64,000 bases of DNA from the NCBI RefSeq assembly GCF_018613855.1, contig NZ_JAGGPK010000020.1, positions 62,001 to 126,000 on the forward strand, in the 5' to 3' direction. The notes under the pieces were generated by a model. That model was not told the DNA's origin, ran no database searches, and was given only the letters and a program-made list of their open reading frames with translations. The stretch is from Arthrobacter sp. ISL-30 (GTDB lineage Bacteria; Actinomycetota; Actinomycetes; Actinomycetales; Micrococcaceae). How positions within the stretch are numbered: the stretch's first letter is position 1; every line of letters starts with the position of its first letter. A program made the position numbers and the translations under genes. Below, piece by piece: positions 17,960-25,806 of this stretch.

Positions 17960-18049
17960 GCCTTTCCAGACAACTACACCTCAACCGCCGCCGTCGGGTC
18001 CTCCACGCAAGTGCAGGATGCGACGGCGGCCCTGCAGAAAGTTCCAGTC

Positions 18050-18481
18050 ATGCCATTGGTCGCGGGAATCGACAGCTCCACCCAGTCCTGCAAGGTGGTG
18101 ATCCGGGATGCCGATACAGGCGAACTGATCCGCGAGGGGCGGGCGTCGCACCCGGCAGGCACCGAAGTGCACCCTGAGCATTGGTGGTCCGCCCTTCAGG
18201 AGGCCCTCGCCAGCGCCGGCGGGCTGGACGACGTCGTGGCGGTCACCGTCGCAGGCCAGCAGCACGGCATGGTCTGCCTCGACGAAACCGGCGACGTCGT
18301 CCGCCCGGCCCTGCTCTGGAACGACACGCGCTCGGCCAAGGATGCCGAAGAGCTGATCCTGGAAGCCGGAAACGGCGACTCCGCGAGCGGCGCGGAACAC
18401 TGGGCAAAGTTGCCATGGGCCGCATCCCGACCTCGGTGGCCGTCGTTACCGGGCATGGTCCCGAAGGCCCGGTCGGGATGA
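18050..18481 (+). pseudogene. xylB: Xylulokinase, N-terminal fragment (xylB')
   Basis: The typical XylB start [18 protein letters not shown] is at ATG 18050 and good homology runs to about codon 120 ([39 protein letters not shown]). At about 18410 the match stops abruptly and the same DNA, in another frame, becomes a flavin reductase. The residual frame reads nonsense to a TGA at 18481. About three quarters of the kinase, including the catalytic Asp and ATP-binding lobe, are missing. I find no C-terminal xylB piece elsewhere in the window. Confidence 0.88.
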
Positions 18482-18903
18482 CCGTCGGCTCACTGGCAAC
18501 GGTTTCGCTCGATCCGCCCCTGGTGACCTTTTTCGCCATGAAGGAATCCCGGTCCTTCGCCGCCCTGCGCAGCCTGGACCGCATCTGCATCAACGTCCTG
18601 GACGAGGATCACGCCGACGTGTGTTTTGCCTTCGCCTCCTCATCCGGGCCGAAGTTCGCCGTCGGCGACTGGGACATGGACCGCGGGGACGCACCTGTTC
18701 TCCGGACAGCTGCAGTAGCCATGCATTGCGGGATTGGCCCTGTGTATGAAGCCGGCGATCACTACGGCCTGATGGCACGACTGACGGACCTGCGCACAAC
18801 GGACACCCGCCCCATGGTTTTCTACCGGGGCCTGATCTCACGGCTGCACCCGACCACCGGGCGTCACGCAAAGACGAACCGCCTCGACTGGTGGGCGCAC
18901 TGA
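18415..18903 (+). CDS. Flavin reductase domain protein, N-terminally truncated
   Basis: A 162-residue frame from ATG 18415. It begins in the middle of the usual family start, where homologues have about 10-15 residues before [13 protein letters not shown]. The FMN-binding part is present: [39 protein letters not shown], and the closing FYRGLISRL. These enzymes supply FADH2/FMNH2 to two-component monooxygenases. No monooxygenase partner is visible here, and no clear ribosome site precedes the ATG, so expression may depend on the xyl promoter upstream. It may be a pseudogene. Confidence 0.7.
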
Positions 18904-19304
18904 TGTCCCACTCTCCGGCGGAGGTACGGCACGCGGTGGAGAATCTTCTGGGCCGGTACGCCGAGTACGCCGAGTACGCCGATGAACGCGACGCGGCCGG
19001 CGTGGCCGAACTGTTCAGTGACGCCGTTGTCAGCTTTGCCGGGACAACGCTGGGCACGGCGGACGAAATCTCCGGGCATTACGGGCGCATCTTCGCAGCG
19101 GCCCCGCCCAGCCGGCACGTGCTGACCAACATCATTGTCGATCGCGCAGGTTCCACGGCCACCGCCCGGTGCCGTTACAGCCGCTGGGCCATCGAACCGG
19201 ACGCGAAGCTGCTTGCACTGGGCGATTACCGCGCCACTTTCGCCGGCGCCGAGGGCGCCTGGAAGTTCATCTCGTTCGAGGTATCCCGCGCCTGGCAGGC
19301 CTAA
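18903..19304 (+). CDS. SnoaL-like / NTF2-fold protein
   Basis: A 133-residue alpha+beta cone protein starting at ATG 18903, whose A is the last base of the preceding TGA. The family pattern is clear: VENLLGRYAEYAEYADERD, VAELFSDAVV, ISGHYGRIF, SRHVLTNIIVD, WKFISFEVSRAWQA. Members include small dehydratases, isomerases and aromatic-dioxygenase beta subunits. The EYA unit is doubled by a 9-bp in-frame repeat (GAGTACGCC) compared with the usual YAEYADERD. Probably a small accessory enzyme of the aromatic pathway that follows. Confidence 0.8.
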   Translation: MSHSPAEVRHAVENLLGRYAEYAEYADERDAAGVAELFSDAVVSFAGTTLGTADEISGHYGRIFAAAPPSRHVLTNIIVDRAGSTATARCRYSRWAIEPDAKLLALGDYRATFAGAEGAWKFISFEVSRAWQA

Positions 19305-19361
19305 CACCCCGTTGCACCGTCAGAACCTACCCCCCAAGCTGTTTTTCAACGAAGGAACCAC

Positions 19362-20576
19362 ATGTCATTCCCCCTGGCCCAGCAACCGGAGACAACACCC
19401 CGGGCGCGGCCGCTCGACGGCGTCGTCATCGCCGACTTCTCCAGGGTCCTGGCAGGCCCCTACGCCACGATGCTCCTCGCGGACATGGGCGCTGAAGTCA
19501 TCAAGGTCGAAAGCCCGGCCGGCGACGATACCCGTTCCTGGATCCCCCCGGTCCGCCCTGACGGCGTTTCGACCTACTACGCCGCGATCAACCGCAACAA
19601 AAAATCCGTGGTGCTGGATTTCAAGGACCCTGACGGTCTTGCCGCGGCGCAGGCACTGGCCGCCCGCGCGGAAGTCGTCATCGAAAACTTCAAGCCCGGC
19701 GGCCTGAAGCGGTTCGGACTCGACTACAAGTCGGTAAAAGAGCGCAACGAGTCCGTCATCTACTGCTCCATCAGCGGCTTCGGCACCGCGGAGGGCTCCT
19801 CGCTGCCGGGCTATGACCTGATCGTGCAGGCGATGTCCGGGCTGATGAGCCTCACCGGCGGACCCGAAGGCTCCCCGTACCGGGCCGGGATCAGCGTCTT
19901 TGACGTCATGGCCGGCCTCCACTCCACCATCGGCATCCTCGCCGCTCTGCGCCACCGCGACCAGACCGGGCAGGGCCAAAGCATTGAGACCTCGCTGATG
20001 GCATCAGCCATGAGCGGGCTGGTCAACCAGACCTCGGCGTATGTCGCCGGCGGCGTCACCCCGCACCGGATGGGCAACGCCCATCCCAGCCTCTTCCCCT
20101 ACGAACCGCTTCCCACGGCCGACGATGAACTGATCGTCGCAGCCGGCAACAACGGCCAGTTCCGCAAACTGTGCGCCGTGCTCGGGGTGCCTGAACTCGC
20201 CGATGACCCCCGCTTCGCTGAGAACAAGGACCGCACCGAACGCCGCGAAGAACTCCGTCCCCTGCTCGTGGACCGGCTCCGGACCCAATCCGCCGGGTAC
20301 TGGTTCGACAAGCTCAACGCAGCAGGGGTCCCCAACGGGCCGATCAACAGCATCAAACAGGGCGTGGAATACGCACAGAAACTCGGCCTGGAACCCGTCG
20401 TGCAGGTCGGTACTGCCGGGAACCTGGTCCCCGGGGTGCGGAACCCGATCACCTTCTCCGCGACCCCGCCACGGTACGACCTGGCACCGCCGAAACTGGG
20501 CGAGCACACCGAAGAAATCCTCGCCTGGCTCGCTGCTCCCGCCGCCGCCCGCCCCTCGACGAAAGAACAAGCATGA
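19362..20576 (+). CDS. CaiB/BaiF family CoA-transferase (class III)
   Basis: A 404-residue formyl-CoA-transferase-type enzyme with a GAAGGA ribosome site. N-terminal motif GVVIADFSRVLAGPYATMLL (residues 20-39), LGAEVIKVE-like segment, NRNKKSVVLD, and the catalytic Asp in ISVFDVMAGLH (D181). The C-terminal lobe has WFDKLNAAGVPNGPINS. Class III enzymes move CoA between carboxylic acids through aspartyl anhydride and thioester intermediates. The stop overlaps the start of the citryl-CoA-lyase-like gene by 4 bases, which suggests that the two act in sequence: activation, then C-C cleavage. Confidence 0.9.
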   Translation: MSFPLAQQPETTPRARPLDGVVIADFSRVLAGPYATMLLADMGAEVIKVESPAGDDTRSWIPPVRPDGVSTYYAAINRNKKSVVLDFKDPDGLAAAQALAARAEVVIENFKPGGLKRFGLDYKSVKERNESVIYCSISGFGTAEGSSLPGYDLIVQAMSGLMSLTGGPEGSPYRAGISVFDVMAGLHSTIGILAALRHRDQTGQGQSIETSLMASAMSGLVNQTSAYVAGGVTPHRMGNAHPSLFPYEPLPTADDELIVAAGNNGQFRKLCAVLGVPELADDPRFAENKDRTERREELRPLLVDRLRTQSAGYWFDKLNAAGVPNGPINSIKQGVEYAQKLGLEPVVQVGTAGNLVPGVRNPITFSATPPRYDLAPPKLGEHTEEILAWLAAPAAARPSTKEQA

Positions 20577-21385
20577 CCATCACCGCAGAAACCCAGAAAC
20601 TGAACTTCCCCACCTCCCTGGGCACCTCCACCGCCACGGAAATCCGCCTGCTCGGACAGGACCTCCCCGGCGATCTGATGGGAAAAGTCGGCTTCGGTGA
20701 ACTCGCCTTCTGGCTCGTCGCGATGCGCCGTCCCACCCTTGGCGAGGTACGGGTCTTCGAATCCGTCCTCGTCGCCCTCGCAGACCACGGCTTCACCCCC
20801 ACCGCGATTGCCGCCCGCCTGACCTATCTCAGCGCGCCGGACTCGATCCAGGGCGCCATGGCCGCCGGACTCCTTGGCGGCGGCTCCCGCTTCCTCGGCG
20901 TCACCGAGGACTGCGGTAAATTCCTGGCCACCGTCCTGGCCGCTCACGAGGGTGCGCTGCCGGACACCGACGAGGAATGGGACGAACTCGCGCTGCACGC
21001 CATCAAGGCCCAGCGCGCCGAGGGCAAGTTCGTTCCGGGCCTGGGGCACCCCAACCACAAGGACGGGGACCCCCGCACACCCGTGCTCATCGGCATCGCC
21101 GACGAGGAAGGGCTGCGCGGACCCCACCTACGGCTCTTCGAAGCCATCGGCAGGATGAGCGAGCAGGCACTGGGCCGGAAACTGCCGCTGAACGGCGCCG
21201 GCGTCTGCGGAGCGGCGCTGGCCGACCTGGGACTGCCCACCGATCTGCTGCGCGGTTTCGCGCTTCTGGCCCGAGCGGCAGGCCTGCTCGGACAGATCGC
21301 CGAAGAACGCCGCAACCCGATCGCGAACGACATCTACATGACCGTGGACCGCAACGCGGCCTACGTCACCCCCGAGAACGACTAG
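20573..21385 (+). CDS. Citryl-CoA lyase-like protein (citrate synthase superfamily, short)
   Basis: A 270-residue protein, far shorter than citrate synthase (about 370-430) and close in size to stand-alone citryl-CoA lyases. It keeps the second catalytic His/Asp region VPGLGHPNHKDGDPRTP (compare GFGHRVYKxxDPR) and a C-terminal helix with NGAGVCGAALADLGLP. The early SIQGAMAAGLLGGGSRFLG matches the citrate-synthase first His region with substitution. Citryl-CoA lyases cleave a 3-hydroxy-3-carboxy acyl-CoA into an acyl-CoA and an oxoacid. It sits directly after the CoA-transferase and before the ring-cleavage dioxygenase. Confidence 0.8.
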   Translation: MTITAETQKLNFPTSLGTSTATEIRLLGQDLPGDLMGKVGFGELAFWLVAMRRPTLGEVRVFESVLVALADHGFTPTAIAARLTYLSAPDSIQGAMAAGLLGGGSRFLGVTEDCGKFLATVLAAHEGALPDTDEEWDELALHAIKAQRAEGKFVPGLGHPNHKDGDPRTPVLIGIADEEGLRGPHLRLFEAIGRMSEQALGRKLPLNGAGVCGAALADLGLPTDLLRGFALLARAAGLLGQIAEERRNPIANDIYMTVDRNAAYVTPEND

Positions 21386-21437
21386 CCACACAACCAGCGC
21401 TGCCAACGACGGCAGCGAAGAGCACAGGGAGAGAACC

Positions 21438-22382
21438 ATGGCAGAACTGACCGCCGTTTTGGCCAGTACACACCACCCCTTCTACCTCAAGGCGACCACC
21501 GCGCCGCCCGAGGAACGCATGCCCCAGGCAGACGAATGGAAGCGGAAAGTCGAGGCATACCGCGAAACCCTCACCGCCGCTGAGCCCGACATCCTGGTCA
21601 TGGTCGGCGCCGACCATTTCCACCAGTTCTTCCTGGACAACTACCCGACATTCATGATCGGTAAGCAGGAAAAGTACGACGCGACGTTCTACAACGAGGA
21701 ACGCGAATTCGGCATCCCGAAGTACGTCCTCGACGGTGACCTGGTGCTCTCGAACTTCATGCACCAGGGCCTGCTGGATGAAGGGTTCGACTTTTCCTTC
21801 AGCCACGAACTGAAGATCGACCACTCCATCATCTGCCCGATCATCACCGTGCGCCCTGACGCCGACCTGCCCGTGGTGCCGATCTACACGAACATCTTCG
21901 CCCCGCCGTTGCCCTCGCCCAAGAGGTTTTGGGATCTGGGCCGGATAATCCGCAAAATCATTGACGCCTACCCCTCGGATAAGAAGATCGCCGCCATCGG
22001 CACCGGCCACCTGTCCCTGGAACTGGGCGGGCCCCGGATGTTCGGCGAACACGGACCGGACCCGGAATTCGACGCCCAGGCCATCGAATGGCTCTCCACC
22101 GGCAACATCGAAGCCATCCTGGAGAACGTCACCCATGAATCCATGGCCAGTTCCGGCAACGCCACGCACGGCTTCATGGACCTGATCCTTATGATGGGCA
22201 TCGCCGGCCCCGAGAACGCCGACTACGTTGACCAGCTGGACCTCTACCACACCCGTGAAATGTTCATGACCTGGTACCCGAACAAGAACGACAAGATGGC
22301 CGAAGCGGCAGCCCGTTCGGCCGCCGAGGCAGGCGGTGTCACCGGACCGGTGTACGCGGCAAAGGCAGGAGCGACGGCATGA
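21438..22382 (+). CDS. Class III extradiol ring-cleavage dioxygenase, catalytic subunit (LigB-like)
   Basis: A 314-residue non-haem Fe(II) enzyme. Metal and active-site motifs: STHHPFYLK (H12/H13), the GADHFHQFFLDNYPTFMIG block (D59, H60, H62) typical of protocatechuate 4,5- and gallate dioxygenases, ELKIDHSIICPI and IGTGHLSLEL (general-acid His region). It opens catecholic rings next to, not between, the hydroxyls. The partner LigA-like subunit follows with a 4-base overlap; this B-A order is the reverse of ligAB in sphingomonads. The exact ring substrate (protocatechuate, gallate, methylgallate or other) is not decided by the sequence. Confidence 0.9.
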   Translation: MAELTAVLASTHHPFYLKATTAPPEERMPQADEWKRKVEAYRETLTAAEPDILVMVGADHFHQFFLDNYPTFMIGKQEKYDATFYNEEREFGIPKYVLDGDLVLSNFMHQGLLDEGFDFSFSHELKIDHSIICPIITVRPDADLPVVPIYTNIFAPPLPSPKRFWDLGRIIRKIIDAYPSDKKIAAIGTGHLSLELGGPRMFGEHGPDPEFDAQAIEWLSTGNIEAILENVTHESMASSGNATHGFMDLILMMGIAGPENADYVDQLDLYHTREMFMTWYPNKNDKMAEAAARSAAEAGGVTGPVYAAKAGATA

Positions 22383-22744
22383 GCAAGTACTACGTGAACA
22401 AGTTCCTCTACAGCATCGACCGTGACCCGGAATGGGTCGCCCGCTACAAAGAGGACCCGGCAGCTACGATCGACCGCTGGGAGAAGGAAGTCGGCATCTG
22501 GCTGAACAGCGCAGAAAAGACCTCCTGGCTGTCCTTCACCGAAGACGAACGCCGCGCGCTGATCAACTCTGACTACGAATGGCTCTTCGCCTACGGCGCC
22601 CACTTCTTCCTCTACCTCACCCTGTTCATCGGCGTGTTCTCCGACGACTGGACCGAAGAAAAGGGACCGCTGTCCTACCAGCTGGAATGGGCACGGCGTT
22701 TGGCGCCGTGGATCGGTAAACCCTACCCGTCCGTGGCACTGTAG
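22379..22744 (+). CDS. Extradiol dioxygenase small subunit (LigA-like)
   Basis: A 121-residue protein overlapping the ligB-like gene by ATGA. LigA-domain features: VNKFLYSIDRDPEWVARYKEDP near the N-terminus and LSFTEDERRALINSDYEWL followed by AYGAHFFLYLT. In LigAB the small subunit forms a lid over the active site. The protein is almost all helical with no catalytic metal ligands of its own, consistent with a structural subunit. Confidence 0.85.
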   Translation: MSKYYVNKFLYSIDRDPEWVARYKEDPAATIDRWEKEVGIWLNSAEKTSWLSFTEDERRALINSDYEWLFAYGAHFFLYLTLFIGVFSDDWTEEKGPLSYQLEWARRLAPWIGKPYPSVAL

Positions 22745-22793
22745 CCGTCGCGCCCCTAAACCGGCACCGGGGCCGGAGAAGGGAGTTGGAACC

Positions 22794-23084
22794 ATGATTC
22801 TTGAACACGCAAGATTCACTATCCATCCTGGCCAGGAGCAGGCCTTCGAAGACGCCTACCAGCGTCTTCGCGGCACCCTTCTCCAGGCCCCGGGCTGCCG
22901 CTCGGCCCAGTTGCACCGCAGCGCCGAACACGAGGGGGTTTACCTCCTCTGGGTCGGATGGGACACCGTCGCCCACCACACCGATCATTTCCCGGAAACG
23001 GACCAGGGCAAGGAAGTCATTGCCACCTTCGCTCCCTTTCTGGCCGGTGCCGACGTGAACCACTTCGACGCCGAACCCCTCTGA
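22794..23084 (+). CDS. Antibiotic biosynthesis monooxygenase (ABM) domain protein
   Basis: A 96-residue dimeric alpha+beta barrel protein of the ABM superfamily, with AGAAGGGAG upstream. Typical pattern: ILEHARFTIHPGQEQAFEDAY, LQAPGCRSAQLHRSAE, YLLWVGWDTVAHHTDHF. Members are cofactor-free quinol monooxygenases or small regulators of aromatic breakdown. In this cluster it may handle a quinol or protect against autoxidised catechols. Confidence 0.82.
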   Translation: MILEHARFTIHPGQEQAFEDAYQRLRGTLLQAPGCRSAQLHRSAEHEGVYLLWVGWDTVAHHTDHFPETDQGKEVIATFAPFLAGADVNHFDAEPL

Positions 23085-23131
23085 CCGTTCCACCCGTTCG
23101 CCAGCGAACCATCACGAGAGAAAGAAAAGCC

Positions 23132-24777
23132 ATGACCCAGCAAGCGGTTAACAATGATGTTGCCTTCCTTCCCGGGAACCCGCCCGAAAACGCCGGGTGG
23201 CCAGGAGGTGAGTACTCCCAGACCGTTGCAGATGGAATGCAGATCGACTACAACGTCCGGGTGCCCATGCGGGACGGCAAGAACCTCCTCGTGGACCTCT
23301 ACCGGCCCGCCGAAACGACGACAGACCTGCCTGTAATCGTGGCCTGGGCGCCTTACGGCAAGCACGGCGCCCTCAGCTTCGCGGGCTGGCCCGGACACGA
23401 CGTGGGCCTGGACCAGCTCTCCAAGTACGCAGCCTTCGAAACCCCGGACCCCCTCTTCTGGACCCGCAACGGCTACGCCGTCATCATGGCCGACGCCCGC
23501 GGCGCCTGGGGATCCGAGGGCGACGTGACCATGTGCGGGCCCGAAGAAGCCGATGCCTGCTGTGACCTGATCGAATGGGCCGGCGAACAGGACTGGAGCA
23601 ACGGCAAGGTCGGCATGGCCGGCGTCTCCTGGTACGCGGTCATCCAGTGGGCCGTCGCGGCCCGCCGCCCTGCACATTTGGCAGCCATCAACCCTTGGGA
23701 AGGCTGGACGGACCTTTACAAGGAAGTCCTGACCCACGGCGGAATCCCGGAAACTCAGTTCGGTGCAGCGCTCGGCCCGCTGATCGCCAACACCCATGGA
23801 CGAGTCGAGGACATCCCGACCAACAGTATGAACCACCCGTTCTACGACGAGTACTGGCAGTCCAAGGCCCCTGACCTGTCCGCCATTGAATTGCCCACCT
23901 ACGTTGTGGCCAGCTGGTCTGACCACGGCCTGCACACCAGGGGAACCCTTGAAGGCTTCCGCCGCATCGCCTCCAAGCAGAGTGGCTGGAAGTGCACGGC
24001 CGCAAGAAGTGGCAGAACTTCTACGACCAGGACAGCCTGGCCCGCCAAAGGGAATTCTTTGACCACTTCCTCAAGGGTGAAGAGAATACCGTGACGTCCT
24101 GGCCCAAGGTCAGGATCGAAGTCCGCGACCGCGCCTACGTTGGCGAAAACCGGGCCGAAAACGAATGGCCCCTGGCCCGCACTGAATACACGCCCCTCTA
24201 CCTTGACGGCGGCCGCGAGGCCATGAGCAAGGACCCCGCCCCGAATCCGGAAACGATCTCCTACGATGCCGCGACCGGCAAGGTAGTTTTTGAGCACACC
24301 TTCGCTGAGGACACCGAAATCACCGGCTACACGAAACTCCGGCTATGGGTCGAAGCCCAAGGGTCCAATGACATGGACCTCTTCGTAGCCCTGCAGAAAC
24401 TGGACGCTGACGGCAACGAAGTGAACTACCCGTTCTTCTCCACCTTCGACGACGGGAACATCGCCCTTGGCTGGCTCAGGGTCAGCCGCCGGCAGCTCGC
24501 GGAGGATTCACGCCCGGAACAACCGCGCTACACGCACCAAACGGAAGAGCTGCTCAGCGAGGGTGACATCGTGCCGGTAGACATCGAAATCTGGCCCTCC
24601 AGCACCCTGTTCCACTCCGGGGAAACACTCCGGCTCGTCATCCAAGGCCACGACGTGAACAGCTACGCACACGGCCTTTTCGCGCAAGGCCACACCTACA
24701 CCCGCAACAGTGGGCAACACATCATCCACACCGGGGACGGACACGACTCACACCTGCTCCTGCCCATCATCCCCTAA
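23132..24777 (+). pseudogene. CocE/NonD family hydrolase, disrupted by one frameshift
   Basis: The first frame (from ATG 23132) gives an X-Pro dipeptidyl-peptidase/CocE hydrolase domain: VPMRDGKNLLVDLYRP, VIVAWAPYGKHG, ADARGAWGSEG, nucleophile region GMAGVSWYAVIQW. It goes out of frame at about 23981. The second frame carries the rest without loss: EVHGRKKWQNFYDQDSLARQ, then the beta-sandwich C-terminal domain (TEYTPLYLDGG to HLLLPIIP). Adding one A after AAGCAG restores a single 548-residue protein. Such enzymes hydrolyse esters or acylated substrates. The sequence is otherwise well preserved, so either the mutation is recent or this is a base-calling error. Confidence 0.85.
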
Positions 24778-24849: not shown

Positions 24850-25167
24850 ATGACCAGCATCACTGCCGGGGTAGCAGAAACCGCCGATGAGCCCGCCCCG
24901 CACACTGCCACGAGTGTCCCGACCATCGGCGATACAGCCCCTACCCGCTAGGGCTACCGCCGCTCAGTTGTCACCAACTGGCTCGAACTACTCCCCGGCG
25001 ACACCGTGGTCCTCATCGCAGCCAATAAAGACCGCATCGAAGGAACGATCGACGTCGTCACCAAGGACGGCTCGTACCTCTGGCTACGCCAAGGCCATGG
25101 TCAGGGCAGGCAACTCTTCTACCACTGCGACGGATACCAAATCCTCGTCGACCCAAGAGCGGAATAA
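24850..25167 (+). pseudogene. Small beta-barrel-like protein interrupted by an in-frame TAG
   Basis: From ATG 24850 (after GAGACACC) one frame runs to TAA 25165-25167 and would encode about 105 residues, but codon 34 (24949-24951) is TAG. The part after the stop, NWLELLPGDTVVLIAANKDRI and YLWLRQGHGQGRQLFYH, looks like a small SH3-like or cold-shock-sized beta barrel. The region resembles the intact 85-residue protein at 55796 (ELSPGTQIEAWHHGRLIHHG). The N-terminal 33 codons are low-complexity and may not be needed; a shorter gene starting after the TAG would need a GTG within LPGDTVV. Function unknown. Confidence 0.5.
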
Positions 25168-25206: not shown

Positions 25207-25806
25207 GTGGCCTTCCAACCCGTGACCACCGTAGACGGCAAAGCCGTTCCACTCAGACGCAACAACGTCGACACAGACCAGATCATCCCCGCCGTCTACA
25301 TGAAGCGCATCACCCGCACAGGATTCGAGGACGGCCTCTTCGCCAACTGGCGCCGCGACCCGGATTTCGTACTCAACCGCCCCGAGCGCTCAGAAGCAAA
25401 CATCCTGATCGCCGGCCCCGACTTCGGAACAGGGTCCTCACGGGAACACGCAGTCTGGGCGCTCATGGATTATGGCTTCCGAGTGGTCATCTCACCACGT
25501 TTCGCCGACATCTTCCGAGGCAACGCAGCAAAGTCCGGTCTTCTGGCGATCCAGCTAAACGGGCAACAGGTCGACCAACTGTGGCAAATAGTGGAATCCC
25601 AGCCCGAGCTTTCTCTCCGCGTCGACCTAGACGCTCAGAGAATAACCGCAGGTGACCTGGCTATGGGATTCACTGTTGATGCGGACACAAGGTGGAGACT
25701 GCTCAACGGCCTGGACGACATTGATTCGACCCTGCAAGACCAGGAATTGATCTCCGCCTTTGAGACCACCAGGCCGGCCTGGCTTCCAACGACTACGTTG
25801 ACATAG
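25207..25806 (+). CDS. leuD: 3-isopropylmalate dehydratase small subunit (orphan LeuD)
   Basis: A 199-residue swivel-domain subunit of the aconitase superfamily, GTG start with GAGAGAAGA upstream. All LeuD landmarks are present: [55 protein letters not shown]. In leucine synthesis LeuD pairs with LeuC, which carries the Fe-S cluster. No leuC is in the window, and the gene follows an aromatic-degradation cluster. It could be a leftover or a partner for a LeuC encoded elsewhere, or serve a hydratase in this pathway. Confidence 0.9.

Follow-up and report, generated by a model that had tools for sequence, protein, structure and literature searches.

A gene cluster of Arthrobacter sp. ISL-30 and its possible role in aromatic ring cleavage with a coenzyme A-dependent end

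The DNA analysed here is a stretch of 64,000 nucleotides from Arthrobacter sp. ISL-30 (contig NZ_JAGGPK010000020.1, positions 62,001 to 126,000; the source genome consists of 68 contigs), referred to as the window at its full length. It carries a LigB-fold ring-cleavage subunit with a LigA-like small subunit (together LigBA), next to a CaiB/BaiF type III coenzyme A (CoA)-transferase, called CaiB below, and a citrate-synthase-fold protein resembling citryl-CoA lyase, for which we use the short name CCL. We propose that these genes may encode the central part of a pathway that opens an aromatic ring and, by way of a maleylacetate-type acid, ends in CoA-dependent steps, a reading to which we give slightly less than an even chance. 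What we observe is the gene content, its conservation, the swap between LigBA and an intradiol dioxygenase and the loss of canonical residues. An earlier, sequence-only reading had suggested a CoA-dependent end to ring cleavage, and the comparison of genomes supports this part of it: the CaiB–CCL pair is nearly obligate beside LigBA and is found also beside a gene of the hydroxyquinol-1,2-dioxygenase family of intradiol enzymes (HQDO) that occupies the same slot.

Association of CaiB and CCL with LigBA

The core set consisted of the best 80 of 494 stretches from a scan of one genome collection with a LigB alignment, at most 10 kb being kept on each side; the 494 were taken at E ≤ 1e-3, and some of them may lie outside this LigB family. 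CaiB and CCL occur together in 75 of the 80 core loci, LigA is present in all of them (80/80), and an IclR regulator (74/80) and an Amidohydro_1 protein, below simply the amidohydrolase (63/80), are frequent companions. Among 20 control LigB loci of the same class, 25–35% identical, neither CCL (0/20) nor CaiB (0/20) was found. With 75/80 relatives against 0/20 controls, the association of CaiB–CCL with this LigBA exceeds chance and is nearly obligate, and the same gene pair beside ligBA, which the sequence-only reading had proposed to look for in other genomes, is indeed there. A second actinomycete clade (clade 2), with LigB proteins 61–65% identical to that of the window, behaves in the same way: 18 loci were found and 14 fetched with wide flanks, all 14 having CaiB and CCL, and the four known from a short stretch comprise three with both genes and one, L006, with CaiB only. 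The nearest named relatives of the window LigB come from Arthrobacter; within the genus the distribution is patchy, the cluster being present in 5 of 150 genomes with the window genome counted, and the other four all have CaiB and CCL.

The pair itself comes in two lineages, whose CCLs are 36% and CaiBs 32% alike, and both lineages accompany LigB proteins 76–94% identical to the window LigB. Alphaproteobacterial LigB (76–84% identical to the window's) is closer than that of clade 2, whereas alphaproteobacterial CCL and CaiB share no more than 36% and 32% identity with the window type, against about 60–77% for those of clade 2. It follows from these identities that the CaiB–CCL pair joined LigBA more than once. 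On the LigB tree the CCL type has to change twice, with weak backbone support; our trees of LigB, CCL, CaiB and the amidohydrolase were all quick searches with weak backbones.

One could suppose that CaiB and CCL lie here by chance and act on some unrelated acid, since CCL also occurs in loci without an annotated ring-cleavage gene, for example on Sulfitobacter and Roseomonas plasmids. We regard this as hardly credible given the contrast of 75/80 with 0/20, the independent re-pairing, the recurrent gene order and the retention of the pair when the ring opener is swapped; on the strength of the control LigB loci we reject chance neighbourhood.

Exchange of the ring opener and altered residues

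In R. opacus G13 (L045), a single HQDO gene stands where LigBA would be, in otherwise unchanged surroundings: monooxygenase, hydrolase, amidohydrolase, CaiB, CCL, LeuD, regulator, HsaA-like oxygenase, flavin reductase and SnoaL. The best solved relatives of this gene are PnpC (E 1.6e-74) and hydroxyquinol 1,2-dioxygenase (E 1.6e-70). A CCL search of 394 genomes of the class gave 44 with a match, and reading the 27 stretches without a known LigB brought seven more HQDO loci and five further LigBA loci. Altogether 115 loci have both CCL and CaiB (113 distinct, as L052/L164 and L084/L250 are stretches fetched twice); LigBA alone is present in 104 of them (102 distinct), HQDO alone in 8, both in 0 and neither in 3, the last being L039, with a VOC protein, L042 and L249, which is cut at a contig end. 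An extradiol-fold protein stands in for an intradiol dioxygenase, with the pair kept. The CCL tree implies at least six switches between LigBA and HQDO, five of them forced by well-supported branches; the CaiB tree gives five (three forced) and that of the amidohydrolase AmH7 two (both forced). In the window, the slot is filled by LigBA, and the best HQDO-type match of the genome, at 31%, is on another contig.

Related arrangements are found on other replicons. The complete set occurs in a third lineage, where a plasmid of Burkholderia glumae has a row of intradiol dioxygenase, CCL, flavin adenine dinucleotide (FAD) monooxygenase, CaiB, LeuC and LeuD; its CCL is 58% identical to the alphaproteobacterial type, and a CocE hydrolase about 8 kb away is 49% identical to that of Arthrobacter MYb213 (L050). 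Cupriavidus N-1 has the order CCL-CaiB-LeuC-LeuD, and L247 a CCL with LeuC and LeuD. CCL occurs without CaiB in 14 loci, with an AMP-dependent CoA ligase near in six and a contig end in several; the ligase is again a CoA-activating enzyme. The six (L235, L236, L237, L239, L243 and L259) have no CaiB, LigB or HQDO in the fetched stretch, and L235 and L239 also have a VOC protein.

The LigB protein that takes the place of an intradiol enzyme is itself altered. Its predicted model is closest to DesB and LigAB (Foldseek E 2e-19; Z 30.9 to DesB), the structure models, built with 52 LigB rows and 43 CCL rows, giving fold and confidence only, and residues 195–205 of the LigB model having a predicted local distance difference test score (pLDDT) below 50. 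The column of the canonical catalytic His (His195 of LigB) holds Leu in 95/95 family LigB proteins, core and clade 2 together, and His in 20/20 controls and 2/2 references; by alignment only, the column of the metal Glu holds Gly in 95/95 and Glu in the 20/20 controls. His12 and His60 of the metal site are retained, and the alignment shows two new invariant residues of the family, His191 and Glu195, the latter being the one that we infer to replace the metal Glu. A canonical LigB is ruled out by the Leu and Gly in 95/95.

The loss of metal Glu and catalytic His in every family member would also suit a protein that has kept the fold and given up the oxygenase role, to act as a hydrolase or isomerase, and MEMO1 is a LigB-fold protein. 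The metal ligands of MEMO1 differ from those of LigB. We hold such a loss of function to be quite improbable: the protein swaps with a true dioxygenase family, the two never occurring together in the 115 loci (0/115), LigA is retained in 80/80, and the amidohydrolase is unlikely to be a hidden ring opener, since HQDO loci retain it. A bolder form of our own reading, which we consider possible although far from probable, is that LigB here has become an intradiol-type ring cleaver on the extradiol LigB fold, through loss of the His and a move of the acidic ligand to Glu195; it would then make the same cut as the hydroxyquinol dioxygenase that it replaces and feed an undescribed ending that needs no reductase, in which CoA transfer and a citrate-synthase-fold cleaving enzyme lacking the classical Asp yield acetyl-CoA and a maleate. 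According to the review PMC6308299, calculations on homoprotocatechuate 2,3-dioxygenase indicate that the second-shell residues His200, His248 and Tyr257 favour extradiol cleavage, and the reference list of PMC13383722 contains a 2003 title from the Journal of the American Chemical Society on the conversion of that dioxygenase to an intradiol enzyme.

CCL has diverged in a comparable place. Its model, also predicted, has a pLDDT of 92.3 and finds its best PDB match in 6hxp (template modelling scores 0.81/0.85). We aligned 89 CCL sequences, 41 of type A, 43 of type B and 5 others, with the clade-2 CCLs outside; for one type A locus a name look-up gave the provisional label Cyanobacteriota. The Asp of citryl-CoA lyase (motif NVDG) is absent from 84/84 CCLs of types A and B, its column holding Ala in 40/41 of type A (Thr in L042), Ser in 43/43 of type B and Thr, Ala or Ile in the five others; in the window CCL it is Ala209. 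The pocket His (GxGH) and Arg (DPR) are retained in 89/89, and His162 is invariant in the 43-row alignment. In known lyases this Asp protonates the acetyl-CoA enolate. The PDB matches of the CCL model include ATP citrate lyase structures whose entry titles name Asp-to-Ala mutants, together with substrates or citryl-CoA; the mutated Asp is presumably the one altered in CCL. Fold, family model and pocket His and Arg agree with the earlier assignment to the citryl-CoA-lyase type, and the catalytic Asp does not; a canonical citryl-CoA lyase is ruled out by the loss in 84/84. By the membership tests of the families they are named after, both CCL and LigB fall outside, and each may still work like its namesakes. 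In CaiB, the aspartate of VFDVMAG aligns with an aspartate of 4ed9, which we take to be the catalytic one that carries the acyl group.

The proposed route, its difficulties and its rivals

If LigBA and an intradiol enzyme of the hydroxyquinol type feed one shared set of downstream genes, ring opening would be expected to yield a dicarboxylic acid of the maleylacetate type. The substrate, the position of ring opening and each catalytic step are what we infer. An HsaA-like monooxygenase, encoded on contig C20, would together with the flavin reductase produce a trihydroxybenzene-type compound; the LigBA variant could then cut the ring between two hydroxyl-bearing carbons to give a maleylacetate-type beta-keto diacid, CaiB would turn the keto-diacid into its CoA thioester, and CCL would split the thioester to acetyl-CoA and a maleate-type acid. 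LeuD, working with a LeuC, might finally hydrate that acid to malate.

Several observations weigh against this scheme. CCL lacks the catalytic Asp, the relatives of LigB make extradiol cuts as a rule, and hydroxyquinol as the substrate is suggested by a family name. Of 110 distinct loci with LigBA or HQDO, no more than 9 have LeuD. The amidohydrolase, found in 63/80 core loci, is missing from the window and has no place among the proposed steps. Five of the core 80 (L075, L080, L096, L101 and L123) are without the full CaiB + CCL; of these, L075 and L123 are close to the end of a contig, and a strong CCL match turns up elsewhere in the genomes of both L080 and L123. On plasmids, L038 and L048, counted in neither the 80 nor the 115, have LigBA without CaiB or CCL. 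Three neighbouring genes of the window copy, the flavin reductase, the CocE hydrolase and a small gene, are damaged. Finally, a maleylacetate-reductase-like match was present in the fetched stretch of 6/115 loci, the window not included.

In favour of the scheme, no such reductase-like gene stands directly at the module in any of the 115 loci. In five Nesterenkonia loci (L071, L076, L081, L089 and L090) it lies about 6–9 kb from LigB, which fits a maleylacetate link, though the gene could also belong to a separate route; in L071 a glyoxalase-fold protein comes after it, both upstream of the LigBA module. Nine plasmid dioxygenase loci were picked from 766 matching records, three of the nine supplying the reductase queries. 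In seven of them a reductase-like match, full or partial, comes without CCL; B. glumae shows the opposite, CCL without a reductase, and L266 lacks both.

The amidohydrolase is the starting point for a different explanation, in which the cluster would degrade an N-heterocycle or aminophenol: the Amidohydro_1 protein would deaminate the compound or open its ring, and LigBA and CaiB–CCL would finish the carbon skeleton. The enzyme is indeed present in 63/80 core and 8/8 HQDO loci, and an excerpt of PMC7356986 describes KpiC, a PF01979 protein of Arthrobacter IN13, as opening 3,4-dihydroxypyridine. Nevertheless, the amidohydrolase is absent from the searched stretches of the window cluster, MYb213 and B. 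glumae, no protein of the window genome passes the cut-off for PRK08204, and the amidohydrolases of L264 and L265 are in keeping with an earlier step that supplies a carbocyclic ring; we consider this explanation unlikely. L264 and L265 are ordinary clusters of hydroxyquinol dioxygenase and maleylacetate reductase, and their amidohydrolase is 31–36% identical to that of the LigBA clusters. We also reject a KpiC-like amidohydrolase as the ring opener, a role that LigBA or HQDO would make redundant; the HQDO loci have retained it.

The sequence-only reading had started from protocatechuate or gallate. On that account LigBA would convert gallate to 4-oxalomesaconate or protocatechuate to the semialdehyde, hydration would give 4-carboxy-4-hydroxy-2-oxoadipate (CHA), and CaiB and CCL would activate and cleave CHA in the manner of citrate. 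The closest solved relatives of LigB are gallate and protocatechuate dioxygenases, gallate cleavage likewise breaks a bond between two hydroxyl-bearing carbons (established chemistry), CCL keeps the His and Arg of the oxoacid pocket in 89/89, and LeuD could act as the hydratase. Against it, the canonical LigB residues are absent, the dioxygenase replacing LigBA is of the hydroxyquinol type, cleavage of the CoA ester would presumably give 2,4-dioxoglutarate, an odd product, and genes of the RraA/LigK family (PF03737) exist at three other places in the genome. We find this account improbable; given the altered LigB, the slot shared with HQDO and the missing Asp of CCL, neither the proposed substrates nor CHA as the acid are supported. 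The related claim that the cluster has no aldolase, hydratase or LigC stands for the aldolase, the three PF03737 genes all lying outside the window, and is incomplete for the hydratase, as LeuD, of a hydratase family, lies just past the span at 25207–25806. LigC, LigI and LigJ are not among the named genes of the window; no separate search for them was made.

The finding goes beyond what the sequence-only reading had stated: the pathway is widespread and has no name, two of its enzymes have altered residues, and the module is present in 75 of the best 80 of 494 stretches and in two phyla. If the maleylacetate-type route is right, trihydroxybenzenes would reach central metabolism in a new way, and nature would offer a test of what determines intradiol versus extradiol cleavage. 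Annotated plasmids name these genes 'extradiol ring-cleavage dioxygenase' or 'hypothetical', and 'citryl-CoA lyase'; with the residues altered, neither name should be trusted. By titles and the starts of abstracts we found no description of the gene combination, nor hydroxyquinol together with citryl-CoA in the open-access papers covered, subscription journals being mostly uncovered and absence thus unproven.

The window copy and related systems

All features of the window copy are on the + strand. Profile matches confirm the cluster genes from the flavin reductase to the split CocE hydrolase (18415–24777), and the coordinates first given for them are right. The row begins with a flavin reductase (HsaB-like; PF01613) at 18415..18903, followed by a SnoaL/NTF2-like protein (PF13577) at 18891..19304. 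CaiB lies at 19362..20576 (PF02515, 395.7 bits) and CCL at 20573..21385 (NF004868, 280.7 bits; cut-off 193), the two overlapping, as had been noticed, by exactly 4 bases, ATGA. LigB (21438..22382; PF02900, 92.8 bits, cut-off 26.3) and LigA (22379..22744; a partial match to PF07746, 26.3 bits, cut-off 25.3) overlap by 4 bases too. None of the NCBIfam LigB and CaiB models scores over its cut-off on the window proteins, and 'LigB' and 'CaiB' are therefore family names only. Next come a small ABM-domain protein (22794..23084; PF03992), overlooked in the sequence-only reading, the CocE/NonD hydrolase gene (23132..24777; TIGR00976 in two frames), a small-gene remnant (24850..25167) and a LeuD family protein, the 3-isopropylmalate dehydratase small subunit (25207..25806; TIGR00171, 189.8 bits, cut-off 116.25). 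Besides this LeuD the genome encodes a housekeeping one, on contig C5, with 57% identity between the two. The window cluster contains no LeuC; one LeuC of the genome scores over the cut-off and lies elsewhere with its own LeuD.

The reading frames of CaiB, CCL, LigB, LigA and LeuD are open. CocE, a single open frame in MYb213 (541 amino acids) and in the same-genus relative G342 (L161; 548 amino acids), is frameshifted in the window at about 23980, and the remnant at 24850–25167, open in G342 by a three-frame comparison, has an in-frame stop. Upstream, xylB (xylulokinase) is broken at about 18410: the window holds a 5' fragment (18011..18410; TIGR01312 profile 2–121 of 481 only), and the remainder (profile 121–441) is on contig C20. 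There it runs into the N-terminus of the flavin reductase, the 19 or so residues that are missing from the window copy and present in the longer protein of MYb213. The two joints are reciprocal (window 18011–18481 versus C20 10533–11830), and the stretches at both share no word longer than 8 bases. The joint on C20 adjoins the HsaA-like oxygenase and a regulator, both of which precede the cluster in MYb213. The junction is either a rearrangement or an assembly error.

Some features recur in the wider surroundings. A sister LigB clade (L143–L148; 33–38% identical), kept out of the pooled counts, has CaiB, no CCL, and Gln at the metal Glu column; in L143, a PF04909 amidohydrolase stands between CaiB and LigB, and L143 and L144 also have an OsmC protein and a zinc dehydrogenase. 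A MetE-like protein (methionine synthase type) recurs near the module in L037, L103, L104, L107, L114, L126 and L130 and is a possible demethylation step.

Four known systems come close to the cluster, each in part. LigAB and DesB, which perform the 4,5-cleavage of protocatechuate and gallate, share with it the fold, the LigA partner and His12 and His60, whereas the window family has Gly for the metal Glu, Leu for the catalytic His and the new His191 and Glu195, and an aldolase of the LigK type is absent from the window. The citryl-CoA lyase of Hydrogenobacter and the lyase module of ACLY resemble CCL in fold, GxGH His and DPR Arg, but the catalytic Asp has been lost from the CCLs studied here. 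The beta-ketoadipate pathway ends with the PcaIJ transferase and the PcaF thiolase; CoA transfer to a keto-diacid and the subsequent release of acetyl-CoA would be common to both, though the present cluster would use a type III transferase and a citrate-synthase fold in place of a type I transferase and a thiolase. A further resemblance is a PcaR/PcaU-like IclR regulator in the cluster of Sinorhizobium B11 (244.7 bits, under the cut-off of 284.75). The hydroxyquinol pathway, lastly, resembles the module through the HQDO gene occupying the same slot in 8 loci, and differs in that the module has CaiB and CCL with no adjoining maleylacetate reductase, and in that LigBA replaces the dioxygenase in 102 distinct loci.

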